Shown: piece by piece, positions 1 through 49,661 of the stretch | Layout of the letters: every line of letters begins with the position of its first letter | How positions within the stretch are numbered: position 1 is the first letter of the stretch | Origin: Latrodectus hesperus | Lineage: Eukaryota; Arthropoda; Arachnida; Araneae; Theridiidae | Reading direction: 5' to 3' | DNA length: 64,000 nt | Assembly: GCA_037975125.1 (NCBI GenBank) | Contig: CM075857.1 | Coordinates: 39,518,436 to 39,582,435 of the forward strand | Program-made: the position numbers and the translations under genes | Notes under the pieces: model-generated | Seen by the model: the letters and a program-made list of their open reading frames with translations, nothing else | Told to the model about the DNA's origin: nothing | Database searches by the model: none

Positions 1-21006
<21,006 letters not shown>

Positions 21007-28820: not shown

Positions 28821-29155
28821 AAATAATAAAAGCACTTTCTTTAAAATAATTCAAGTTGTAAATAGTTCTGAAGATTTAGGTTATGCTTTTTAATTTGAAA
28901 CAACAAAAATCGAATAAAAATAATCAGAACTCGAGAATTGGATTCAGAAATGTAACAAGAAAATAACAAGACTTGCTATAATTTATAAATAATTTAAAAT
29001 AATTATTAATTTTACATATTAATATAATTATTTTCAAAAATGTATATTTTACAGCAGTGAATGATGTTAATATATAATATATGTAGATTAAATGTATTTA
29101 TAAATAACAGTGAGTTAGGATAAATTAATTAGTTATGCAAACATTTCATTTGCCA

Positions 29156-29420
29156 TTAATGATGAATTTGATTATTTACTTCATCAGTGTTGATCACTTC
29201 AAGTTTTTCAAATTCACTGCTTAAAAATGCTAAGTCACTCCAATTATTTTGTCCCATGGTTGATCGTATATGTCAGAATTAATTTTAATTTACTGAACGA
29301 ACGTTCACAGCTAACAATTGACGTTGAAATAGTAAAAATTGTCTGTACTCTCATAATTTTAATAACATCTTCACCATACTAGATTATGCAAGTTAAAAGC
29401 TTCAATGGAGTTTAAGATTT
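29156..29420 (-). pseudogene. C-terminal remnant of a hAT-type (ZMYM1-like) transposase
   Basis: On the minus strand the end of a hAT transposase dimerisation domain is legible: TSIVSCERSFSKLKLI, then, after a one-base frame change, NNWSDLAFLSSEFEKLEV and a stop at 29158-29156. This pattern (CERSFSKLK.I...L..L..LS.E) is typical of the C-terminus of hAT/ZMYM1-type proteins. The rest of the transposase is not seen. The Polinton-like element starts about 330 bp to the right. Confidence 0.65.
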
Positions 29421-29739
29421 AATTTCTTTGGAGCATTGAATTATATACTTATATATTTTTTATAATAAAATCATAAATATTCTCAGCCAAAACATGTAAA
29501 TTTGTAATATTTTTTATTTTTCAAAAACTGATACACTCAGTATTTAAGTTTTCTATTGAATAAAATTCTTATTGGGAATTAGACTTTTAATTGTTGTTCC
29601 CGATCTAATTAGACCTCGTGTAAAAAAGATCGTTTAAGGACAAACAAATCAATACAGGTATTCATACTAGACAAGAATTTTAACATTCTTATCTCATGAT
29701 TATGCGAAATTTTCTCAGTCGTTTACTTTACCAATGATG

Positions 29740-29745
29740 CATGTC
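29740..29745 (+). repeat. 6-bp target-site duplication, left copy
   Basis: CATGTC, identical to 43447-43452. Six bases is the duplication size known for Polintons/Mavericks. Confidence 0.9.
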
Positions 29746-29811
29746 AGTAGTGAGAAAAGGAGAGTTCACCGACACGCGCAGCACGCAGCAGCCTCTTATC
29801 AGCAGTAGCGG

Positions 29812-30040
29812 TGACGTCATAAGTTTGTAGTCTTATACGAGGGTTTAGAGTGACGTCATATGTTTGTGATCTTACACGAGGGTCTTATCACTAAGCAGAG
29901 TATGTGACGTCATTGAATAGTGCTGCCATCTATGGAGAAATTTTGAAACTTTTTATATTAATGCTAAGAGTGATGTCATTGAATTGTGGTGCCATCTATG
30001 GAGGAATTTTCAAACTTTTTATACTAATGCTGCCCTCTAT
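29812..30040 (+). repeat. Subterminal block with repeated TGACGTCAT words, left arm
   Basis: TGACGTCAT occurs at 29812, 29851 and 29905, with a one-base variant at 29971. Tandem half-repeats (TGCCATCTATGGAG...TTTTGAAACTTTTTATA) follow. TGACGTCA is the CRE/ATF consensus. Whether host factors or element proteins use it is unknown. Confidence 0.75.
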
Positions 30041-30090
30041 GGGATTAATTTTGAACTGTATATTTTTATTTTTAAAAATGAACATTTCCA

Positions 30091-30159
30091 GCCGTGGGGA
30101 CAGAACCTCAAACCTCAGCCGTGGTAGTCCGTTATCTTAACCACTGAGCTACTCGGACT
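30091..30159 (-). ncRNA. tRNA-like segment in left arm
   Basis: On the minus strand, GTCCGAGTAGCTCAGTGGTTAAG resembles an acceptor/D-arm with a pol III A box, and GAGGTTCTGTCCC sits at the B-box distance. The T-stem and acceptor stem do not pair well, so it is not a working tRNA. It could be an internal promoter or a captured tRNA fragment. Confidence 0.4.
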
Positions 30160-30852
30160 TCGAAAAGGGAATGGTTTTTATGGTTTATTATCATAGTGGA
30201 TTATTTGGACTTAGAATTTTTTGTAGTGATTTTAAATAGAATTTTTATGTTTAAGGATTATAATGTATTTTAAAGTGTATAATATTAGGAATTTATTTTT
30301 TTTACGATATGAATTTTTTTTCAATTTAAAAGGAAATGAATCCTGAACTTAATTACAATGTAGAGAATTTTAGAATATTAATTACAATGTTGAGAATTTT
30401 AGAATATCAATTAAATTTTATTGGAAAAGAGATAGAATTTATTTTTACGATAAAAAGACTAATTATTTTTCGAATACTACTGACAGAATTTATTATTTAA
30501 AAATATTAATGAAATTTAAAACAAATGTTAATTGTTTTGAAGTTGATCATTATTTTAAAATAAAATTCTAGACATTTTGTAAATGATTTGAACTTAGAAT
30601 AAATGACTGAATTCTATTTACTTACCTTTATGGTCACATCTGTAAAGTTTTTATATTAGTTAAAATAATGCTGATTTCCACACCACGCAAGGCGTACAGC
30701 ATATTTGGCGCGTTATCTCCTTTTATTTTATGCTTGGCGAGATTCCCCAGTAGGCCTATTTTCCAAGCTTTTTTAAATGAATATGTACAACTAATGATTT
30801 ATGAATATATACAAGGAATTATGGTATTGGATTCGGCATCATCTTCAAGGAA

Positions 30853-31085
30853 TTATGGAATGTTGTTTGGGATCTTATGATGACCATAAGAGTAAGAGGA
30901 TATACCGTCGTCTAAGAGATACCTTTTATCATCAAAAGGAGAGAGGGAGATTTTGTTGATAGATGTTGTGTAAAGTTGATGGTTTGTGCTTTGTATTCGT
31001 TTTTGTTCCATTCTTTTTATTTCTCTTTGAAATAGACATCGTTTGTAATTATGATGTTTGAGTTGTTTTCTAACAACATTTCTGT
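30853..31085 (-). pseudogene. Out-of-frame C-terminal end of left polB
   Basis: Directly downstream of the polB stop, in a different reading frame, lies sequence typical of the Polinton polymerase C-terminus: NVVRKQLKHHNYKRCLF and FDDKRYLLDDG...YGHHKI. A single-base difference near CTAAGGGAGTGA separates it from the main frame. The right arm has the same arrangement. It may be a frameshift mutation fixed before the arms duplicated, or, less likely, a programmed frameshift. Confidence 0.75.
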
Positions 31086-34000
31086 TCACTCCCTTAGATG
31101 TTTTTTCTCACCTTCCGAAGATAATATAGTGTACATCTTAGACCGTAATCCTATAAATTCGAAGATAGGCTTCCCATTCAATTCATCCTTGAAGCAGCCA
31201 ATTTTCTTTTTGTTTTCAGTGCTGAAGAGAGGGTGATCTGGAGGGTAATCGGAGGTATCGTAAATGTTGATATTTTTCTTCATATCAACATATGCATCTT
31301 CTGATTTAATCTCGTAGGTAAGAGAGTCTGTATCCGTGAAAAGCAATGATGCATTACTTCCATATTGTCTCTTGATGATGTTGTAGTGGAATTCATACAT
31401 CAAAAGTTTACTTAACTCTAAGATAACAAACCCAATGTAGATTGGACGATTGAGAATCACTGTGTTTCTCAATCGTTCTATACCTACGAGATCATTATCA
31501 AAAATTTTAAATTGTTTGAAAGAGGGAGCGGCTACTAATTTTTTTGCTTTGTGTTCGGTGTTTACTAGCTGAACATCTATGTGCTTTCTAACATTCTCCA
31601 TTGTTTTTCCATATACGCTATTATTCATCAGTTTGAAAAAATCCTTTTCAAACGATGAGGACGCGTTTTTTCGTTGTTCCGTATTAAAGTCGATGTATGA
31701 TTTAAGCCAAGGTTTTTGATTGAATTTTAAAATTTTATGTACTTTAGTTAATTTTAAGCCTAATGATAAATAAAGTTTTAAATTACGATGATATATTATA
31801 TAATTACTTTTATTTCTTAAATTTGGAATTAATTTAGTAGTGGGTATGAATTTATTACCATTTAACAAGGAGGATGCGAAAGGAGATAGATCTTCAGCTG
31901 TAACTTTGATTTTTTCTGGTGCTAATGGGTAATCATTATGTAAATCATGCAGGGCTTGAGGATAATCTAAATCTACCTCCAGAATATATCCCTCTGAACT
32001 ATTATCTGATAAATTTAGAATATGATCCAAAAGTTGATCAGATGGTGAAATCCATTCGAATTTTCCAAAAGGTAGTGGTTGAGACATAGCCCAACCGTAC
32101 AAGTTATTTGCATCTAAATACATTATATATTTAGACACATCATCTTCGCGATAATTTTGCATGTACTTGTTGTTTGCTGCAGAATACCGATGTGTTATCA
32201 TAGAAACACCCCCACGAATTCCACGTTCTATAAACAAATGCATGTCTATATCCGTGAATAGTTCGAGTGTTTCTTTGGTCATTTTTAGCGATGCTTGCCA
32301 TGCTAAACCGGGAACAGTTACTAAATGTGCACAGTCTAGACCATAGTATTGCATGCAAAGTGACCGAAAATTTTGAAACACATCAGCCAACTGCAACACA
32401 TCAGATTTAACGTACAAGTCATGGTATTCACCTAAATTTTTAATGTTAAAATTTTCCCAAACGTTTTGAGCATGGTTATAATCATCAGAGGAAATACTTT
32501 CTTCTGTTAAAGAGCTATAAAATTCTTCTATAGGAGGAAGCATTTCCTCATTAAATTTGGAAAAATCAGACATATATTCATAGGGATATACTCCTTTCTT
32601 TAATAATAAATGAACGTCAGAATTATTGAAATTTTGATTTAAAATTTTGAATTGATGGGGTTTTAGATTAGAGACTAATTTTTCAAGGGAAGAATTCATG
32701 AATTGAAAACTATCTATGAAATTTAATGATACTTGTATTTTACCATATGTTTTACTTAAGCTAAATGAAATATACTTTTCTAAATTATGGGGGATTACAC
32801 TCAAGGTATGATCTTTGACTTTCCCCAAACCCTGCATAATTAAATGACCATCATAGTGTTTTAAATTATGGAATACTACTGGAATTTTTTTACTTAGTTT
32901 AAATTTTAAATTGCATGTGGTATGTAATGCTTGTCTATAATTAGGTGTTGAAAAATTCTGATGGTCATGGTCCCTAACGCGATCAGTTCCAAGTGGTTTG
33001 TTACAGATGTTACAATTAGTGGCGTTTCTAAATGAGTGTTCGTGTTCTGGTGTCATTTTTAAAGGGGCTATTGTAATTAATTTATTGGCCAACTCCTCTT
33101 TCTCACGTAATATATTTTCAATGAAACTGTCAACAGCATTGGGTCCTCTGTATACTGTGATAGGTTTTAATGTGTTCCCATCTGGTCCTATGATGATATA
33201 GGCATAACCACATGGTTTATGGTGAGCAATATTGTTTGTGTAAGATGTTGTGGTGTTGGGTGTGCATGTAGATATTTTTTCTATGATTGTTTCGAAATCT
33301 GCATAAATTATGTAGGGTACGGGATGTTGGAAATGATAATTAGAAAATTCTAAATTGTTATCTTCGTGATTTGGCATTTTAATGTTTTGAGGACTATGCT
33401 GTCGACAGTGAATAGCATGTTCCTTTAATGAATGTTCTTCAGCAAAACGATGGAGACACCTGTAGCAATAATATCGTACACCATTATGCACGGTACGATC
33501 ACTCATTAGCCTTGAAAAGTTCCTTATGAGGCAGTAGTGGGTGGTCTGTTCATTGGAAATGAGCAATAGATTGCAACAATCTTCATCTTCCCTGTCAGAA
33601 ATATACAGAGGGAAAACTTCCTCATCATATCCAAAGACATTGATACGAAGATTGTTCAATCTTTCGATGACTGGAATTTTGCCTACAGGAACAGGACATT
33701 CAACCCCTCCCAAATTAACATCGGTTTCAAAACTTGAATAATGACCGATACGTTCAGGATGATCCCTCCAATGAATATTGAATCGAAAAGCCAATATACA
33801 CCAGAGGAGACATTTGTGGTCATTATTCTGAATGTTTAAAACAGCCTTTTTGAGGGCTATATTCTTTGGGAGAGGTATGTAGCTACTTGCGGCTAATGGA
33901 TGATATTTTGCTGAATTTATGCTAAAGAACAAAATTTTCTCCAATACCCAACCAGACCCCCTCTCTGTAAACTCGTCTAAAGAGGAGAGAATTTTCGTTT

Positions 34001-36189
34001 CACCTTCTTCAATGTGCCTGTCTATTGTATCAGTTGTGAGTTCAATAGCACATTTGGAACGGAAGAAGGGAGAGGCAAATTCTAACTCTCCATCTTCAGA
34101 CATTCTGCTCATTAAAACTTTCACCACCCCGTACCATTTAATGGATGATAATTCTTCAAGTTCCTCCAACAACTTACTACGAATCTTGGGTCTCATCTCT
34201 TCGAAGAATGAAATAAAATCAGATTCGTTTTCTTCGAGAGGTTCGAACGTGAAGATGGCAAAAGTGTTGAGAGCTCTTTGCTGAACTCGAAGACGTTTAG
34301 GGTGGATAGGTACGGCCGTGGACTTACGTTTTACGTGATGTGTTGTGCGAACATGTGCAGTTAATTGTAACCTTGAATTAAATTTTAATTCACAGTGATT
34401 ACATTCATGCATTTTATTGCGCTGGTGAGTTAACACATGTCTTTTTAAATCATTGTTGCGTGTAAACTTTTTCTCACATATGTCGCATGTAAAATTTTTA
34501 ATATCACTGTGAATCTTCAAGTGTTGATTTAAATTACGTTTCAAGGTAAAACTTTTTCCACACAGATCGCAAACCTAAAAACCGAAATAACTCGTTTTAG
34601 AATTTTAATTTCTCTTTTATTATTTTATGATCATTTAACATTTTAATAGATTTTATTATTATAATTTTTTAGAGTATATAACTAACTAATTATATTTTAC
34701 AAACAATTGTGTTTTGATTTACGAAATATAAATTCAAGTTAAATTTTTTTTCAAACTTTAGTAAACTTTGAATCAATACTAATGTTAGATAATTTTAATT
34801 GTAGAGGGAATTCTATTACTGTATGTATAAACTTTAAAACTTATCAAAAAAGGGAACTTGGTATAAATTTTATATATAACACTGATTACAAAATAATATC
34901 ATGAAACATGCAAGTACTCACATGAGCAGATGAGTTTGAAATTGATGATTCAGCCTTTGATTGTTTGATAGTTGACGATACGCCACTAGACGATGTAGTA
35001 GGTTCGACATCCCAAACAGGGTTTGAGTCATTCCATTCATCTTGTAATTCTGTGGCGTTGAGAATTTCTCTCAATTCCTCATGAGGAATGCCAAAGTTAA
35101 TAAACTACGGAAAATAAAAATGTTAGTATAATGATCTAATCAAATTAAAAAGAGTTGTTTTCCGGTCAAATACATTCACTTTAAAACAAAGGTATGCGAT
35201 ATTACACTGAAATCGGGAGATAAATATATCACGTGACTCTAGCTTTGCGATAACTCTAATCAATGTGACTCGTTATACATGCGTCATCACGTTATTGGTG
35301 TGTAACAATTCTTATCATAAAATGCAATAGCTATCTTATCATTTAAGTAAGCCGATGAATGTACTATATAATTAAATTCTATTAGAATTTATACTTTTTT
35401 TATTTAAAAAGGTAAGTTATAATAATATTTTTTTAAAGAGGTAAGTTATACAAACTTGTTACTGTAAATAATTATTTTAATTTCAACAAAAATAAACTAA
35501 ATGTCAGCCTAAACTGAAATATTGTATTCACCAAAGCTTTCTAACATTTATTTTAAATTATTCCATTATATTGAACTAATCATTAAATAACATAAGATCT
35601 TTTTATAAGTCAAAACATTTAAAATATATCTATGTTAAAACATACTATGTAAAATAAATTAAAAACACTTTATAAAAATGGTTTAATTGAAACCGTTAAA
35701 CATTTATATTTACAGACTATGTAAAATAATTTAATAACACGTTAAACTAGTAAACCATTAAAACAATTAAACATTTATATTTACAGACTATATAAAATAA
35801 GTTAATATTCAACAGCGTTAAACATGTAAATTGAAATTAAAACATTTAAACATCTTATATTTACATACTCTATTAAATAAATTAATATGAAATAGTCTTA
35901 AACACGTAGATTGAAATTAAAACAGTTAAAATTTTATATTTACGCTTGATATGAAAAAAATTAAAAACACTATTTTAAAATAAGTAGATTGCAAAAAATA
36001 GATAATTTATATACACAGTTAAAATATCTTTACACTATACAAATTATATTAAAAACTTTGATTAGAATAGAGAAACACTAAACATAAATAACAATAAATG
36101 TAATCATTTAAATATTAATTCAGGCTAAGAAAAAATTTACTTACTTGAGAAGATTCCATAGCTGAATTCTGATTCTGAGAAGATTCCAT
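31086..36189 (-). CDS. Zinc-finger-tagged family B DNA polymerase (Polinton polB), left copy
   Basis: Three exons: 36189-36145, 35104-34922 and 34574-31086, all GT-AG, phase 0 at both joins; about 1,238 residues to the stop. The N-terminus is short and Ser/Gln-rich. Exon 3 starts with three C2H2 fingers (CDLCGKSF...H...H, CDICEKKF, CNHCELKF). The polymerase part has exonuclease motifs YADFET and NLKHYDGHLI, a HDHxxFxTPNYRQALH...CNL zinc/HNH-like motif typical of Polinton polymerases, and polymerase motifs A (YLDANNLYGWAM), B (NNSVYGKTMENV) and C (LFTDTDSL). Exonuclease and polymerase acidic residues are present. Replication would be protein-primed in the known family. Transcription is outward from the element centre under a heat-shock-like promoter. 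The expected last ~75 residues continue in another frame after the stop. Confidence 0.88.
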
Positions 36190-36298
36190 AACTAAATTCT
36201 AATTCTAAGATTCCATAGTCGATTGAAGACGTACTGAACTAAAAGCGTACTTTCACTTAAGCAGATGAGAGTAAGTATGAAATGTTGATAAAGTTTCA

Positions 36299-36421
36299 CC
36301 CCTTTTTATATCCAGCGAAGAATGTTCCAGAACTGATAACATACCATCATCCAATCACTCTCCTTCTATTGGCTTCTATCAAATGTCTTTCGGAAACTGA
36401 CAGAACATTCTAGAATGTTCT
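36299..36421 (-). promoter_or_regulatory. Heat-shock-like promoter of left polB
   Basis: On the minus strand: a four-unit element GAAnnTTCnnGAAnnTTC (36402-36421), a three-unit element at 36320-36332, and the TATA box TATAAAAAGGGG (36310-36299). The ATG is 110 bp downstream at 36189. This matches the classical heat-shock factor consensus of alternating nGAAn units placed close to a TATA box. Confidence 0.75.
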
Positions 36422-36764
36422 AAAATCCCTTCTTTAATATAACATTTAAATTCGACATAGTTGAGGCTTTGGGAGATACAGTGAAAATTAATCAAATGTG
36501 ATTAACGCTTTCAACCCCTTGCTCTTATCAGAACCTCGTTATCATTATCTATGAAATGCGCATAACGAGTGAAATCTGTTCTTTGGAAATATGATATCAG
36601 TTATTTACATAGAAGCTGATCGAAGCTGATAGAACATGGTAGAATGTTTTAACCCCTCACTCTTATCAATAATTAATCATAGGGGGGCCGTTATCTACTA
36701 AAAGATTGCGTCTTCTGAATCATGACGTGTCTCATGTGAAATACGCTTACTTCCAGAAACTGAT
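36422..36764. other. Unique 343-bp spacer at the centre of the palindrome
   Basis: Not part of either arm. It includes one degenerate heat-shock-like word (GAACATGGTAGAATGTTT, about 36633-36650) and two related AACCCCTnnCTCTTATCA words (around 36514 and 36650). It separates the two divergent promoters. Confidence 0.7.
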
Positions 36765-36887
36765 AGAACATTCTAGAATGTTCTGTCAGTTTCCGAAAGA
36801 CATTTGATAGAAGCCAATAGAAGGAGAGTGATTGGATGATGGTATGTTATCAGTTCTGGAACATTCTTCGCTGGATATAAAAAGGGG
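36765..36887 (+). promoter_or_regulatory. Heat-shock-like promoter of right polB
   Basis: Mirror of the left promoter: a four-unit GAA/TTC element at 36765-36784, a three-unit TTCnnGAAnnTTC at 36854-36866, and TATAAAAAGGGG at 36876-36887. The ATG follows at 36997, after a CAGT-type initiator-like stretch. Confidence 0.75.
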
Positions 36888-36996
36888 TGAAACTTTATCA
36901 ACATTTCATACTTACTCTCATCTGCTTAAGTGAAAGTACGCTTTTAGTTCAGTACGTCTTCAATCGACTATAGAATCTTAGAATTAGAACTTAGTT

Positions 36997-39900
36997 ATGG
37001 AATCTTCTCAGAATCAGAATTCAGCTATGGAATCTTCTCAAGTAAGTAAATTTTTTCTTAGCCTGAATTAATATTTAAATGATTACATTTATTGTTATTT
37101 ATGTTTAGTGTTTCTCTATTCTAATCAAAGTTTTTAATATAATTTGTATAGTGTAAAGATATTTTAACTGTGTATATAAATTATCTATTTTTTGCAATCT
37201 ACTTATTTTAAAATAGTGTTTTTAATTTTTTTCATATCAAGCGTAAATATAAAATTTTAACTGTTTTAATTTCAATCTACGTGTTTATGACTATTTCATA
37301 TTAATTTATTTAATAGAGTATGTAAATATAGATGTTTAAATGTTTTAATTTCAATTTACATGTTTAACGCTGTTGAATATTAACTTATTTTATATAGTCT
37401 GTAAATATAAATGTTTAATTGTTTTAATGGTTTACTAGTTTAACGTGTTATTAAATTATTTTACATAGTCTGTAAATATAAATGTTTAACGGTTTCAATT
37501 AAACCATTTTTATAAAGTGTTTTTAATTTATTTTACATAGTATGTTTTAACATAGATATATTTTAAATGTTTTGACTTATAAAAAGATCTTATGTTATTT
37601 AATGATTAGTTCAATATAATGGAATAATTTAAAATAAATGTTAGAAAGCTTTGGTGAATACAATATTTCAGTTTAGGCTGACATTTAGTTTATTTTTGTT
37701 GAAATTAAAATAATTATTTACAGTAACAAGTTTGTATAACTTACCTCTTTAAAAAAATATTATTATAACTTACCTTTTTAAATAAAAAAAGTATAAATTC
37801 TAATAGAATTTAATTATATAGTACATTCATCGGCTTACTTAAATGATAAGATAGCTATTGCATTTTATGATAAGAATTGTTACACACCAATAACGTGATG
37901 ACGCATGTATAACGAGTCACATTGATTAGAGTTATCGCAAAGCTAGAGTCACGTGATATATTTATCTCCCGATTTCAGTGTAATATCGCATACCTTTGTT
38001 TTAAAGTGAATGTATTTGACCGGAAAACAACTCTTTTAATTTGATTAGATCATTATACTAACATTTTTATTTTCCGTAGTTTATTAACTTTGGCATTCCT
38101 CATGAGGAATTGAGAGAAATTCTCAACGCCACAGAATTACAAGATGAATGGAATGACTCAAACCCTGTTTGGGATGTCGAACCTACTACATCGTCTAGTG
38201 GCGTATCGTCAACTATCAAACAATCAAAGGCTGAATCATCAATTTCAAACTCATCTGCTCATGTGAGTACTTGCATGTTTCATGATATTATTTTGTAATC
38301 AGTGTTATATATAAAATTTATACCAAGTTCCCTTTTTTGATAAGTTTTAAAGTTTATACATACAGTAATAGAATTCCCTCTACAATTAAAATTATCTAAC
38401 ATTAGTATTGATTCAAAGTTTACTAAAGTTTGAAAAAAAATTTAACTTGAATTTATATTTCGTAAATCAAAACACAATTGTTTGTAAAATATAATTAGTT
38501 AGTTATATACTCTACAAAATTATAATAATAAAATCTATTAAAATGTTAAATGATCATAAAATAATAAAAGAGAAATTAAAATTCTAAAACGAGTTATTTC
38601 GGTTTTTAGGTTTGCGATCTGTGTGGAAAAAGTTTTACCTTGAAACGTAATTTAAATCAACACTTGAAGATTCACAGTGATATTAAAAATTTTACATGCG
38701 ACATATGTGAGAAAAAGTTTACACGCAACAATGATTTAAAAAGACATGTGTTAACTCACCAGCGCAATAAAATGCATGAATGTAATCACTGTGAATTAAA
38801 ATTTAATTCAAGGTTACAATTAACTGCACATGTTCGCACAACACATCACGTAAAACGTAAGTCCACGGCCGTACCTATCCACCCTAAACGTCTTCGAGTT
38901 CAGCAAAGAGCTCTCAACACTTTTGCCATCTTCACGTTCGAACCTCTCGAAGAAAACGAATCTGATTTTATTTCATTCTTCGAAGAGATGAGACCCAAGA
39001 TTCGTAGTAAGTTGTTGGAGGAACTTGAAGAATTATCATCCATTAAATGGTACGGGGTGGTGAAAGTTTTAATGAGCAGAATGTCTGAAGATGGAGAGTT
39101 AGAATTTGCCTCTCCCTTCTTCCGTTCCAAATGTGCTATTGAACTCACAACTGATACAATAGACAGGCACATTGAAGAAGGTGAAACGAAAATTCTCTCC
39201 TCTTTAGACGAGTTTACAGAGAGGGGGTCTGGTTGGGTATTGGAGAAAATTTTGTTCTTTAGCATAAATTCAGCAAAATATCATCCATTAGCCGCAAGTA
39301 GCTACATACCTCTCCCAAAGAATATAGCCCTCAAAAAGGCTGTTTTAAACATTCAGAATAATGACCACAAATGTCTCCTCTGGTGTATATTGGCTTTTCG
39401 ATTCAATATTCATTGGAGGGATCATCCTGAACGTATCGGTCATTATTCAAGTTTTGAAACCGATGTTAATTTGGGAGGGGTTGAATGTCCTGTTCCTGTA
39501 GGCAAAATTCCAGTCATCGAAAGATTGAACAATCTTCGTATCAATGTCTTTGGATATGATGAGGAAGTTTTCCCTCTGTATATTTCTGACAGGGAAGATG
39601 AAGATTGTTGCAATCTATTGCTCATTTCCAATGAACAGACCACCCACTACTGCCTCATAAGGAACTTTTCAAGGCTAATGAGTGATCGTACCGTGCATAA
39701 TGGTGTACGATATTATTGCTACAGGTGTCTCCATCGTTTTGCTGAAGAACATTCATTAAAGGAACATGCTATTCACTGTCGACAGCATAGTCCTCAAAAC
39801 ATTAAAATGCCAAATCACGAAGATAACAATTTAGAATTTTCTAATTATCATTTCCAACATCCCGTACCCTACATAATTTATGCAGATTTCGAAACAATCA

Positions 39901-42107
39901 TAGAAAAAATATCTACATGCACACCCAACACCACAACATCTTACACAAACAATATTGCTCACCATAAACCATGTGGTTATGCCTATATCATCATAGGACC
40001 AGATGGGAACACATTAAAACCTATCACAGTATACAGAGGACCCAATGCTGTTGACAGTTTCATTGAAAATATATTACGTGAGAAAGAGGAGTTGGCCAAT
40101 AAATTAATTACAATAGCCCCTTTAAAAATGACACCAGAACACGAACACTCATTTAGAAACGCCACTAATTGTAACATCTGTAACAAACCACTTGGAACTG
40201 ATCGCGTTAGGGACCATGACCATCAGAATTTTTCAACACCTAATTATAGACAAGCATTACATACCACATGCAATTTAAAATTTAAACTAAGTAAAAAATT
40301 CCAGTAGTATTCCATAATTTAAAACACCATGATGGTCATTTTGTCTGCTGGTCGCGGAAAGTCTTGATCGACCTTGGAGGTAATCCTCCATAACTTAGAA
40401 AAGTACTATTTCATTAGCTAAGTAAAACATATGGTAAAATACAAGTATCATTGACAATTTCATAGATAGTTTTCAATTCATGAATTTTTCCTTGAAAAAT
40501 TAGTCTCTAATCTAAAACCTCATCAATTCAAAATAACCAGCTTTCAATGATCCTGAGTTCGTTGAAGTATAGGAGTATCTGCCGTTCATATGTCCATCCC
40601 TCCAATTAATGAAAGATGCCATTCTCCATGAAGTAATTTGATCTCTTTCAGAATATACATGTTCGGATGATTATAACCTGCTCAAAACGTCTAGAAAATT
40701 TAACATATTAACAACTGATAGTATACCAGACGGCATGATTTAATCTGCATCAGACGTTCAGTAAGCAAATAGATGGTTTAGGTGTACACGCGCGTCAGCT
40801 GATGCAGGCAGATGTGTAAATTATGGACTAGAGCTTTTGCATGTTTGATAGTATGTCTGATTCCCGGTTTAGCGATGTAAGCATCGCGTAAAACGTAATC
40901 AAAGCAAAGCGACTCGAATATTCGACGGATATGACATGCACTTGTGTTATAGAACGGGAATTCACGTGAAGATCGGTGTTTCGATGATGAAAACATGCAG
41001 TATGCATTCATCAAAGCAACATAAATACAATGAATTTACGATGATAAAGCTCAAATATATAATGCATTAGACGGCAAACATGTTCTACGCTGCATTATCA
41101 ACCACGTAACGTTTTCAGACCTGAATGATTTCACCATCGTGACCGACTTTGGATCATATTCTCGAAAGTTACAATCGAGAAGACTTAACCAGGACATATT
41201 CTGGGGATTTTGTATTTATCCTCGCCCTGCAAGCTGACTTTACATAATTTTTGATGATACCACATTACACTCAGAAAAAATCAAAGTTTAAGCAGCTGAA
41301 GATCTATCTCCTTTCGCATCCTCCTTGTTAAATGGTAATAAATTCATACCCACTACTAAATTAATTCCAAATTTAAGAAATAAAAGTAATTATATAATAT
41401 ATCATCGTAATTTAAAACTTTATTTATCATTAGGCTTAAAATTAACTAAAGTACATAAAATTTTAAAATTCAATCAAAAACCTTGGCTTAAATCATACAT
41501 CGACTTTAATACGGAACAACGAAAAAACGCGTCCTCATCGTTTGAAAAGGATTTTTTCAAACTGATGAATAATAGCGTATATGGAAAAACAATGGAGAAT
41601 GTTAGAAAGCACATAGATGTTCAGCTAGTAAACACCGAACACAAAGCAAAAAAATTAGTAGCCGCTCCCTCTTTCAAACAATTTAAAATTTTTGATAATG
41701 ATCTCGTAGGTATAGAACGATTGAGAAACACAGTGATTCTCAATCGTCCAATCTACATTGGGTTTGTTATCTTAGAGTTAAGTAAACTTTTGATGTATGA
41801 ATTCCACTACAACATCATCAAGAGACAATATGGAAGTAATGCATCATTGCTTTTCACGGATACAGACTCTCTTACCTACGAGATTAAATCAGAAGATGCA
41901 TATGTTGATATGAAGAAAAATATCAACATTTACGATACCTCCGATTACCCTCCAGATCACCCTCTCTTCAGCACTGAAAACAAAAAGAAAATTGGCTGCT
42001 TCAAGGATGAATTGAATGGGAAGCCTATCTTCGAATTTATAGGATTACGGTCTAAGATGTACACTATATTATCTTCGGAAGGTGAGAAAAAACATCTAAG
42101 GGAGTGA
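36997..42107 (+). pseudogene. Zinc-finger-tagged family B DNA polymerase, right copy, disrupted
   Basis: Same gene as the left copy, in mirror orientation. Exon 1 is 36997-37041 (ATG to GTAAGT), exon 2 is 38080-38262, and exon 3 starts at 38610. Exon 3 is open to 40307, covering the three zinc fingers, the exonuclease DFET motif and the HDH...CN motif. There one A is missing from a run of A near 40290 and the frame is lost. From there to about 41310 the sequence is scrambled and full of stops, removing motif A. From 41325 to 42107 the frame is open again and retains motif B (NNSVYGKTMENV) and motif C (FTDTDSL), identical to the left copy. It cannot encode a whole polymerase. Confidence 0.88.
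40285..41310 (+). other. Localised highly diverged patch in right arm
   Basis: About 1 kb whose left-arm partner (31883-32884) is a clean open frame. Here substitutions and small indels occur every few bases, with no codon periodicity and many stops. The flanks on both sides return to near identity within a few bases. The patch also has more CG dinucleotides than its partner. Confidence 0.85.
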
Positions 42108-42340
42108 ACAGAAATGTTGTTAGAAAACAACTCAAACATCATAATTACAAACGATGTCTATTTCAAAGAGAAATAAAAAGAATGGAACAAAAACGAATAC
42201 AAAGCACAAACCATCAACTTTACACAACATCTATCAACAAAATCTCCCTCTCTCCTTTTGATGATAAAAGGTATCTCTTAGACGACGGTATATCCTCTTA
42301 CTCTTATGGTCATCATAAGATCCCAAACAACATTCCATAA
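42107..42340 (+). pseudogene. Out-of-frame C-terminal end of right polB
   Basis: Same sequence and same frame break as at 30853-31085 (VVRKQLKHHNYKRCLF, FDDKRYLLDDG). The shared lesion means it predates the arm duplication, or the arms have been homogenised since. Confidence 0.75.
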
Positions 42341-43032
42341 TTCCTTGAAGATGATGCCGAATCCAATACCATAATTCCTTGTATATATTCATAAATCATT
42401 AGTTGTACATATTCATTTAAAAAAGCTTGGAAAATAGGCCTACTGGGGAATCTCGCCAAGCATAAAATAAAAGGAGATAACGCGCCAAATATGCTGTACG
42501 CCTTGCGTGGTGTGGAAATCAGCATTATTTTAACTAATATAAAAACTTTACAGATGTGACCATAAAGGTAAGTAAATAGAATTCAGTCATTTATTCTAAG
42601 TTCAAATCATTTACAAAATGTCTAGAATTTTATTTTAAAATAATGATCAACTTCAAAACAATTAACATTTGTTTTAAATTTCATTAATATTTTTAAATAA
42701 TAAATTCTGTCAGTAGTATTCGAAAAATAATTAGTCTTTTTATCGTAAAAATAAATTCTATCTCTTTTCCAATAAAATTTAATTGATATTCTAAAATTCT
42801 CAACATTGTAATTAATATTCTAAAATTCTCTACATTGTAATTAAGTTCAGGATTCATTTCCTTTTAAATTGAAAAATAATTCATATCGTAAAAAAATAAA
42901 TTCCTAATATTATACACTTTAAAATACATTATAATCCTTAAACATAAAAATTCTATTTAAAATCACTACAAAAAATTCTAAGTCCAAATCATCCACTATG
43001 ATAATAAACCATAAAAACCATTCCCTTTACGA

Positions 43033-43102
43033 AGTCCGAGTAGCTCAGTGGTTAAGATAACGGACTACCACGGCTGAGGTTTGAGGTTCTGTCCCCACGG
43101 CT
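43033..43102 (+). ncRNA. tRNA-like segment in right arm
   Basis: Mirror copy of 30091-30159, with the same A-box-like TAGCTCAGTGGTTAAG and degenerate B box. Confidence 0.4.
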
Positions 43103-43149
43103 GGAAATGTTCATTTTTAAAAATAAAAATATACAGTTCAAAATTAATC

Positions 43150-43381
43150 CCACAGAGGGCAGCATTAGTATAAAAAGTTTGAAAATTCCTCCATAGATGG
43201 CACCACAATTCAATGACATCACTCTTAGCATTAATATAAAAAGTTTCAAAATTTCTCCATAGATGGCAGCACTATTCAATGACGTCACATACTCTGCTTA
43301 GTGATAAGACCCTCGTGTAAGATCACAAACATATGACGTCACTCTAAACCCTCGTATAAGACTACAAACCTATGACGTCAC
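43150..43381 (-). repeat. Subterminal TGACGTCAT block, right arm
   Basis: Mirror copy of 29812-30040, with the same spaced TGACGTCA words near the right terminus. Confidence 0.75.
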
Positions 43382-43446
43382 CGCTACTGCTGATAAGAGA
43401 CTGCTGCGTGCTGCGCGTGTCGGTGAACTCTCCTTTTCTCACTACT

Positions 43447-43452
43447 CATGTC
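43447..43452 (+). repeat. 6-bp target-site duplication, right copy
   Basis: CATGTC directly after the right terminus. The flanking sequences beyond the two copies differ, so the inverted symmetry stops exactly at the element ends. Confidence 0.9.
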
Positions 43453-44804
43453 TACTTATTTTTAATTTTTAATAGGACATTCTTACGATTTTAAAATATT
43501 TTTTTATTCAAAAGAGTTTGTTTTTGTTTTTTCATATTGTTTTACGCAATGGCATATTTTCTTTTTGATTCAATAATTTATACATTAAGATCTTTTTAAT
43601 TTTTTACAGTGCAGAATCGGCATAAATCGAACATTATTTTTTACAATAATTATGCCAGATTTCATTATATTCCTCCAGAATGATTTCTCTTAGGCTAAAA
43701 CAGGTTTTTGTTATAAATTGTAATAATTAAAAATAGGTTTTAAATAAGTAAATGTAAAGAATACAAGCTAGACAGAAAACGAAATTCGATATTTTTTTTT
43801 TTTTTTTTTTGTTCCAAAAATCAAGATTTTTAAAAGTCAAAATTACATTAATCTTATAATACTCTATAAAGATATAAATACCATAAGCAAGAAAAATTAA
43901 ATTATTAACTATGACTATCAGATCTGACAATAATTTTTTTCCAGTCCAAGGACATTAACAATTTTTAAATATCTGATCAAATTTGAACTTCAAAATCTGC
44001 CTTATTTTTGTGTAAACTTATGCGTAAAAGATACGATTAAAAACAGATACATAAAACTACTGTTTTCTAGAATGAGTATTAATAATATATTTTCATTTTT
44101 GTGTAATAGATGGAGTAATAAAGAAATAATTTTGCTCACTTCTAATCAATAAATGGTGATTATCAAAAAAATAATTTTCTATTCTTTGGATGAGTACAAA
44201 TCTTTAAACATTTATTCCAATTATAAGTTTCATTTTATTACATAGTTAATTCCACACTTTTAAAGGATTTGAAATTAAATACTCAATTTAAATTCTGAAG
44301 CAACAAATAAATGGCAAATTAAATTGATAAAATAAAAATTTATTATTAACATGGTTTTAGATAAAGTAAATTGAATTGTAAAATAAGATTAGAAATTTAA
44401 TTTTAGAAATAATTAGATAAATGACCTATTTTGTTTACAGAATTTATTCCATACACATTTTATGCAATTTAAAAGAAAGATAAATTTTACAATTATTCTG
44501 TGATTAATAATTTATGATTCAAAAATATTTAATTTCTTTTATTAAAGAGAAAAAATTGAATACATGTATTATTATAGAAAGCGATTTTAAGCATTATTGC
44601 ATTCATTTGCTTTTCGATTCATAAAATTTCTGTTAGAGTTTTCCTCATTTGCTTACATTACTACAACCGCCCTACTAGGTAACGCCATTCACCACACCCC
44701 TTTTCAGACTACCTCTTTAGGTTTGTATTAAATAAGAAACGTCGCCAAAATATACCAAGTACGGTTACAGTTTACCTTGCCAACACGACTTCGGAAAAAC
44801 TCTC
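43453..44804. other. Intergenic DNA, nothing recognised
   Basis: AT-rich with a T-run near 43794. The last 150 bases (44660-44804) are GC-richer and may be repeat-derived, but I cannot assign them. Confidence 0.45.
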
Positions 44805-45274
44805 GGAAATGCATTGATGTCTATGGGAAAAAATATCTTTAAAAATAATTAAATGAAACTGAAAATAATGTGAAATAGTTGAATTTATATGATAAATATA
44901 TTGAATATTAATCTGTCATTGATTATAGTAAAACAAATGATAATGGAAATACAAAATCTGACATTTTATTGTTAGGTGTTATGCAGAATAGAACCAATTT
45001 TACTTTCGTTTTTGTGGATAGAGTAACATATATTTTAAAAAATTCATTGTATCTATATATATTATCAATATTATATGAATAGTTATATTTAATTATTGAT
45101 GTTTTCCCTTGATTATTTATTTTTATTTCCTCTGTGTTTAACCATTTAATAGATAGTTTATAAAGCTGAAAGATATTTTGATAGATACATTATTTTAATG
45201 CATTTTACCATTAATTGTAATTTTAGAAATTGAATTTCATATTTTAGAATAATTAATTAAAATTCAATATATTT
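44805..45274 (+). repeat. Left 470-bp TIR of the THAP element
   Basis: Reverse complement of 49191-49661 with almost no differences. It ends at ...ATTCAATATATTTT. Confidence 0.92.
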
Positions 45275-46532
45275 TAATAGGAAATCAAATTCTATTCAAT
45301 TATCTTTAAATATAAATATAGTTATGATATTAAAATTAATATCTAATTTGAATCAAATTTAAGTTTTACATTTCAATTTAATTATTCTAGTGATTTTTAT
45401 AGAAAATAATTTTAATATTAATTTTTTTGTTATTCTAATTTTATAAATTCTTTTATCCCTTGTTAAAGCTTTTAATATATTTTGCTATGATGTTGCACAT
45501 TTTATTGTAATTCATTTTTTACACAATTAAAAATTAAATATTTCTTAAATTCATTATAACCAATAACTATGTTATGTAATTAAATAATTATTTAAATATA
45601 ACATTTCTTAAAATTATAGGTAGGAACTACTTAAATTTAGTTACAAATCATCAACTACAATAGGCTTTCTTATTTTTCATTATTTTTCCTGAATAATATA
45701 ATAAAAATCTAAATTTACATTTCTTTAAAAAGACAGCAATAACAAAAAGTGCAAATTAAACTAAATCTTTTTCCTTCATTTAATATGAATTACAAACCAA
45801 ATATCCTACTTCACAGAGTCACTTTTTTAAAATAATAGTAACTCATGAAAAATAGAGTATTTAGTTAAATGGGATATATGGTTCAATGCATCCAACAATG
45901 TCAGTCAAGTATGAATATTTGTGTCATGGAAATTTCACTAACTTTGTATTGTGTATCTAACTTTTGCTTGACTATGAGTTGGGTTTTTTCTAAAAGAAAA
46001 TAATAACTTTATTAAATATCAAAAAATACATAGTAATACATAAAACTGAGAAAAAGCATATAAAAGGAATAATTTGAAAATTTAGTGAATTTAATTTAAA
46101 GTAAAATTAACAAGATCAAATTCAATGCAAATACAAAAAGAATACAGGTATATGTCAAGTTTGTTACTCAAGATCAAATTAAAAATGATATAAATATGGT
46201 AGAAATAAAAATTATAATAAACATTTCCTTAAATAAATTATGCAAATATTTGAAATTGTTTTAAATGTTTAGCACTTATAAACACAAAAATATAAATACT
46301 TAAAATTACAATAGTTATCAAATTATAAAATAAAATATTCAATATTTTTTGTGCATATGTTTCATCTAACATCCCTGTAAAGTTGTTAAAATTTATTTAT
46401 TATTATGAATACATGGAAAATAATTACATACTTCTTAGTAAACATATTTAATTATTTCCAAATACAAATATTATAAATGTTAATTTTACAAGAACAACTA
46501 AATGTTTATCCAGGCAAATGCCAGAAAAAAAA

Positions 46533-49190: not shown

Positions 49191-49661
49191 AAAATATATT
49201 GAATTTTAATTAATTATTCTAAAATATGAAATTCAATTTCTAAAATTACAATTAATGGTAAAATGCATTAAAATAATGTATCTATCAAAATATCTTTCAG
49301 CTTTATAAACTATCTATTAAATGGTTAAACACAGAGGAAATAAAAATAAATAATCAAGGGAAAACATCAATAATTAAATATAACTATTCATATAATATTG
49401 ATAATATATATAGATACAATGAATTTTTTAAAATATATGTTACTCTATCCACAAAAACGAAAGTAAAATTGGTTCTATTCTGCATAACACCTAACAATAA
49501 AATGTCAGATTTTGTATTTCCATTATCATTTGTTTTACTATAATCAATGACAGATTAATATTCAATATATTTATCATATAAATTCAACTATTTCACATTA
49601 TTTTCAGTTTCATTTAATTATTTTTAAAGATATTTTTTCCCATAGACATCAATGCATTTCC
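49191..49661 (-). repeat. Right 471-bp TIR of the THAP element
   Basis: Mirror of 44805-45274. Its inner edge is about 130 bp upstream of the THAP gene ATG, so it probably contains that gene's promoter. Confidence 0.92.

Follow-up and report, generated by a model that had tools for sequence, protein, structure and literature searches.

Mirror genomes of adenoviruses, including the symmetric recombinants of type 12, are linear, protein-primed molecules in which one half of the genome is lost and the other is mirrored, so that the two ends share one origin. Defective genomes of this kind, with their left ends inverted, were reportedly described by Daniell in 1976. Here, we describe an element of the same general architecture in the spider Latrodectus hesperus: positions 29746-43446 of a 64,000-nucleotide stretch of contig CM075857.1 (assembly GCA_037975125.1; hereafter the window) form a head-to-head palindrome, in which two 6.7-kb arms flank a 341-bp unique centre. 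Like the adenovirus genomes, it has lost one half, mirrors the other and would have the same origin at its two ends; whereas those genomes are virion or infected-cell DNA of a lytic virus, it is integrated in an animal genome, where such palindromes have target duplications and one of them lies at two loci. This element probably arose as a fold-back (snap-back) dimer, built from the polB half of an adintovirus-type Polinton family of ~16 kb.

Polintons (Mavericks) are among the closest known systems. The window element shares with them a 6-bp target duplication, (AGT)2...(ACT)2-type ends, a family B DNA polymerase (PolB), and kin in the same genome that carry an integrase, a protease and an ATPase. 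Ends of this type are named for vertebrate Mavericks in PMC8097293. Polintons are thought to replicate as protein-primed free linear DNA, mostly by analogy with adenovirus (PMC8097293). Unlike them, the window element has the polB half alone, twice and mirrored, such that its whole length is inverted repeat, and it is without integrase, ATPase, protease and any capsid-sized open reading frame (ORF). The ordinary copies of the family fit the adintovirus gene set, as given in PMC8363768, and the window PolB is 53% identical to that of the Corynactis coral adintovirus (among the best 120 matches listed); in contrast to Adintoviridae, the window palindrome is a defective derivative, and the capsid candidates of the ordinary copies (ORFs of 254 and 469 residues) have no Pfam match. 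Inverted copies, short spacers and strand switching are reportedly also features of chromosomal amplification by foldback or by origin-dependent inverted-repeat amplification (ODIRA), but those are chromosomal or origin-dependent events that are unbounded by transposon termini. No description of Polinton palindromes was found in the literature searched (open-licence papers, among those listed), in agreement with a first-pass annotation of the window, which knew of none.

The window element is organized as follows (window coordinates):

29740-29745, no strand: left copy of the target site duplication CATGTC, read directly
29746-36422, plus strand: left arm, 6677 bp, with, in inward order, the polB-side terminal inverted repeat, polB, and the intron and promoter region
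36421-36422, no strand: fold-back junction, at which the arm and the 5′ part of the AlkB-like gene share 2 bp of microhomology (TA)
36423-36763, no strand: unique centre (loop), 341 bp, in ordinary-copy order, holding the first ~23 codons of the AlkB-like gene
36764-43446, minus strand: right arm, 6683 bp, mirror of the left arm
43447-43452, no strand: right copy of CATGTC, read directly

The element ends in AGTAGT...ACTACT, with an exact CATGTC duplication abutting both ends; it thus has the AG...CT ends of Polinton terminal repeats, and its entire arms are inverted repeat. The 13.7-kb palindrome of the first-pass annotation, and the end of its symmetry at the CATGTC duplication and AG...CT termini, are both confirmed in the assembly, while its 343-bp centre measures 341 bp. 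Beyond the element termini the sequence is no longer symmetric: the flanks are unique, and blastn detects no mirror between them in the window. In the alignment of the arms, 415 of 6734 columns differ: 402 in bins 31846-32945 and 13 elsewhere. A ~1-kb stretch of the right arm is garbled, showing ~73% identity and 86-88 gap openings against ten full-length polB-arm matches, to which its left-arm counterpart is 98.8-99.8% identical. A truly diverged right-arm PolB is the less likely explanation, as the flanks of this stretch are near-identical. The stretch is probably a failed consensus and, since we read it as such, both arms are probably near-identical along their full length.

When the ten proteins of one ordinary copy from this genome were searched against positions 29000-44200 (tblastn, E up to 1e-5), no integrase, protease, ATPase or capsid-sized ORF was found, as previously proposed, and the sole match is a 23-residue piece of the AlkB-like protein. 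The integrase is present in eight of nine ordinary copies (see below); therefore, what lies in the window is a palindromic Polinton derivative that is non-autonomous, and not an autonomous Polinton.

In the 1.64-Gb host genome, the 341-bp centre has at least 43 matches at at least 38 loci, which are lower bounds because 40 of 58 candidates were scored. These 38 loci comprise 31 with an ordinary centre, six palindromes (the window included) and one partly rearranged copy. Nine ordinary loci were read on both sides of the centre and 22 on the AlkB side only (~0.5 kb), which is ordinary in all 22. Each of the nine has a single polB arm on one side of the centre, and protease, ATPase and the 469-residue ORF on the other; the window left arm is homologous to only one half of such a copy. 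An integrase was found in eight of the nine, with none by tblastn in the stretch fetched for the copy at C1:107.3 Mb, and the polB arm at C5:42.77 Mb is divergent (70-97% in pieces). The ordinary copy at C6:107871474-107887446 is 15,973 bp long, has terminal repeats of ~0.77 kb and is flanked on both sides by GGCGAG. Its proteins score above the Pfam cut-offs for rve (47.6 bits), Chromo (39.8) and Pox_A32 (30.1), as well as for the 2OG-Fe(II) oxygenase (AlkB-like) and PC4 families, and just under them for Peptidase_C5 (20.8; cut-off 21.3) and Adeno_IVa2 (20.9; cut-off 21), while its 254- and 469-residue ORFs, in the expected capsid place, gave no Pfam match. Thus, the ordinary copies combine an adenovirus-like protease and a packaging ATPase with an integrase, as adintoviruses do. 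It should be noted that an ordinary subtype, found at 11 loci, is missing ~470 bp of the AlkB 5′ region; one of the other palindromes, on C1377, is derived from this subtype, and the window palindrome from the other.

The five further palindromes in the same genome are:

C1377:8802-24501: polB arms; turns inside the PC4-like gene; loop 75 nt; duplication ATCGAC
C4:121624468-121638573: AlkB-type arms; loop 94 nt; duplication AGCGTG
C18:1416374-1429829: AlkB-type arms; loop 172 nt, with extra sequence in mid-loop; duplication TGCATG
C8:52840959 to a gap after 52853296: AlkB-type arms; loop 116 nt
C3:27950268 (after a gap) to 27962222: AlkB-type arms; junction as in C8

With these, a one-off rearrangement in the window is set aside. 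The first-pass annotation had proposed a genome search for other copies with their own 6-bp duplications, and a perfect one is indeed present in all four palindromes with both flanks readable (CATGTC, ATCGAC, AGCGTG and TGCATG). Two of the six palindromes have PolB arms (window and C1377), and four carry an AlkB-like gene and no PolB. The ten ordinary-copy proteins detect no integrase, protease, ATPase or capsid-sized ORF in any of the six (tblastn). A further tblastn search found no polB in any of the eight halves of the AlkB-type palindromes. The AlkB-type arms contain a second AlkB-like gene, ~42% identical to the ordinary one, whose frame is uninterrupted in C4 but broken in some of the others. 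With their four insertions, these form a polB-less palindromic lineage. Arm-to-arm identity in the palindromes other than the window's is 99.2-99.9% over 5.9-7.8 kb. In each palindrome, both termini are polB-side ends, i.e. the arms match the polB arm past the shared terminal repeat. The turning points vary, giving loops of 341, 75, 116, 94 and 172 nt, and mirror arms that run to the replicon terminus around a short unique loop are a feature of fold-back dimers. The locus at C13:12.22 Mb was considered as a seventh palindrome and rejected, because its right arm is without polB and no left end was found at the position expected for a full arm. Its arm joins AlkB much as in the window, two bases off the window's AlkB-side breakpoint, and the locus may be a fold-back that has decayed or else mark a hot spot for breakpoints. 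Among viral contigs, a scan with a single protein found no palindromic relative, and an alignment scan gave one 15.5-kb stretch (PolB 40%), in which no inverted repeat of 60 bp or more was found.

The palindrome joints are new sequence junctions that are absent from the 31 ordinary centres. At the window junction, the arm, read inward, reaches ...GAATGTTCTA and then AAATCCC...; in ordinary copies, the arm has ...GAATGTTCTATCAG... and the AlkB gene ...GTGGGGTAAAATCCC..., with TA common to both, and the 341 bp between the breakpoints keep the ordinary order. As far as its sequence tells, this is the outcome expected of a strand that starts at the polB terminus, runs inward as far as the AlkB gene, anneals to itself 341 nt upstream and is then extended back. 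The C1377 junction has the same geometry, with an 8-nt microhomology, CCACAAAA. Among 20,000 random fold-backs, 21% have a microhomology of at least 2 nt, 3.0% of at least 4 nt and 0.04% of at least 8 nt (P 0.0004); hence, C1377 has a strong microhomology, and the one in the window is nothing unusual. The AlkB-type palindromes read as carrying an older common joint, which links the arm with the AlkB 5′ end as in the window but ~100 bp deeper; they appear to have refolded afterwards at different points.

The palindromes at C8 and C3 are 99.5% alike over 5.3 kb and share the junction GATCGAAGC joined to GGATTTCACATGAGGCATG, with bases unseen in the ordinary copies compared, while the flanks at C8:52.8 Mb and C3:27.96 Mb have no detectable similarity. 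With a common junction in unrelated flanks, this palindrome must, judging from these sequences, have formed before at least one of its insertions, and therefore moved as a palindrome. The first-pass annotation had called the window palindrome a mobile unit; movement is thus evident from these sister loci, but not from the window copy, whose junction is not seen at the other 37 centre loci.

We propose that the element would replicate as free linear DNA, with the element termini as the ends of the molecule. A strand, either displaced or nascent, whose 5′ end is the polB-side terminus would halt early, inside the AlkB-like gene, and its 3′ end would pair with the strand itself ~341 nt upstream over TA, prime, and copy back to the polB-side terminus. 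A further round would convert the hairpin to a duplex, both ends of which bear an identical origin. Ordinary copies would supply the integrase, and the palindrome would be inserted in trans with a 6-bp duplication; the polB-less (AlkB-type) palindromes would, in addition, be replicated in trans, like defective satellites. The folded molecule would have been free and linear because the mirror ends at the element terminus, where a chromosomal fold-back would copy flank as well. A hairpin dimer followed by integration in trans, as first suggested from the window alone, remains the best fit to the ordinary copies with a single PolB arm, the palindromes' own duplications, the fold-back junctions and the junction found at two insertions.

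Sister arms were compared using 12 arms (66 pairs) over two test pieces of ~1400 bp and 2250 bp, for which the medians over all pairs are 1.2% and 2.1%, respectively. The window sister arms differ at 0 of 1400 and 1 of 2250 sites, and those of C1377 at 1 of 1422 and 8 of 2250 sites. Over the shorter piece, these two are the closest pairs of all; over the longer one, the window pair is the closest (1 difference), followed by an unrelated ordinary pair (2).

Fold-back on a free linear Polinton ranks ahead of conversion in place, which is unlikely but comes next. Here, an ordinary Polinton would have integrated first, and its integrase half would have been overwritten later in the chromosome by the polB half, via inverted-arm break repair through the terminal repeats (gene conversion or synthesis-dependent strand annealing). 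Such repair, which the ~0.77-kb terminal repeats of ordinary copies could initiate, keeps the target duplication and makes sister arms identical, both as observed. However, repair between distant arms does not predict loops that are short and local (75-341 nt) together with an integrase half that is wholly gone, and the C8:52.8 Mb and C3:27.96 Mb palindromes, with a common junction and private bases in common in unrelated flanks, show a palindrome that predates an integration.

We regard an assembly artefact as still less likely, in which the terminal repeats of many similar copies would lead the assembler into the polB half from either flank, with two copies then joined in mid-element. In its favour, this is a draft genome that holds many similar copies, two of the six palindromes adjoin 500-N gaps, a 1-kb stretch of the window copy is garbled, and target duplications, being a property of the locus, would survive a misjoin. 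Assemblers, however, join along common sequence, whereas these joints are new junctions that differ among palindromes, one recurring at two loci, and sister arms are the closest pair in three of four tests (window in both pieces, C1377 in one) and the third closest in the fourth. Finally, a chromosomal break within an integrated copy that folded back into a hairpin-capped inverted duplication in place is highly improbable: loops and microhomology are generally known to arise that way too, but the mirror should continue into one flank, when it stops at the terminus with a 6-bp duplication in all four readable palindromes and blastn gives no flank-to-flank mirror in the window.

Several points weigh against fold-back on a free linear Polinton. 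All palindromes are known from one draft assembly alone, with 500-N gaps at one end of two of them (C8 and C3) and a garbled stretch in the window copy. The counts derive from 40 of 58 centre candidates scored and from 31 ordinary centres of which 22 were read on one side, and the census covers the loci of this one Polinton family that contain the centre. Over the 2250-bp piece, the C1377 sister arms (8 differences) are third of 66 pairs and not the closest. The window microhomology of 2 nt is at chance level (~1 in 5), the C8/C3 overlap is 1-4 nt by eye, depending on the assumed parental variant, the C4 junction has zero overlap and two extra bases, and the window's own junction is confined to the window among the centre loci. 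Furthermore, we infer, rather than observe, the free linear form and the terminal protein.

The polB gene and its surroundings in the window element comprise:

31089-34574, minus strand: left-arm PolB open frame with N-terminal C2H2 fingers, 1162 codons stop to stop
36304-36310, minus strand: mirror of the right-arm TATAAAA
36403-36420, no strand: perfect palindrome GAACATTCTAGAATGTTC at the inner end of the left arm, which fits a four-unit heat-shock element
36766-36783, no strand: second heat-shock-element-like palindrome, in the same place as in the ordinary copies compared
36876-36882, plus strand: TATAAAA, read directly; presumed polB promoter of the right arm
36997-37041, plus strand: presumed first coding exon of polB in the right arm, ahead of a putative GTAAGT splice donor and mirrored in the left arm
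38610-40304, plus strand: right-arm PolB, N-terminal open part
40300-41290 (approximate), plus strand: garbled stretch within right-arm PolB, probably a failed consensus
41292-42104, plus strand: right-arm PolB, C-terminal open part

In the left arm, PolB has an uninterrupted frame, and a first exon probably lies further inward than 31089-34574; in the right arm as assembled, the garbled stretch breaks the frame. Thus, of the earlier claim that both arms carry polB, the presence of the gene in two copies stands, but the right copy is not open (40300-41290). Pfam matched the C2H2 zinc fingers alone in this protein. A protein search gave 7983 relatives among 7990 scored candidates; among the best 120 listed, the nearest named ones are orb-weaver spider proteins (66% identity), and several are annotated PF03175 or PF02945. 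In an alignment with ten relatives, the invariant stretches of the window PolB include DANNLYGWAM, NSVYGKTMEN and DTDS, at around residues 821-830, 985-994 and 1081-1084, respectively; we take these to be polymerase motifs. Only zinc-finger chains were found in the PDB, among the best 60 of 150 matches, and the PHROGs search gave a weak match to endonuclease VII (E 0.0068). Homology places the protein with the PolB/PF03175 family, with protein priming as a prediction.

The heat-shock-element pattern has two exact matches in the window, compared with 0 in 100 shuffles. We presume from the motif that the palindromes at 36403-36420 and 36766-36783 are candidate sites. A heat-shock-element-like palindrome adjoins the TATA box at the presumed polB promoter, and the gene may be heat-inducible.

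Two other features of the window lie outside the element. A perfect inverted repeat of 471 bp (44805-45275 and 49191-49661, 3.9 kb apart, with short ORFs alone in between) looks like another DNA transposon or inverted-repeat pair. A long interspersed nuclear element (LINE)-type element at 11034-12353 and 12750-16067 has two open frames, of which the second encodes endonuclease, reverse transcriptase and RNase H domains.

Palindromes that end at element termini and have their own duplications are difficult to derive from anything but a free linear molecule, and for this reason the free linear replication proposed for Polintons becomes readable from genomes. We lean, by a narrow preference, towards a broader reading, in which an animal Polinton recurrently gives rise to fold-back palindromes as mobile by-products, which perhaps form a standing satellite class and which spread at the expense of full-length helpers, and in which the set of junctions is a fossil record of the free linear replicative form. 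As part of that same reading, and held with the same slight preference, the window, C1377, C4 and C8/C3 palindromes would represent at least as many separate snap-back events. Taken together, the palindromes suggest that Polintons have their own counterpart of defective interfering genomes; those without polB would be a natural test of replication and integration in trans.

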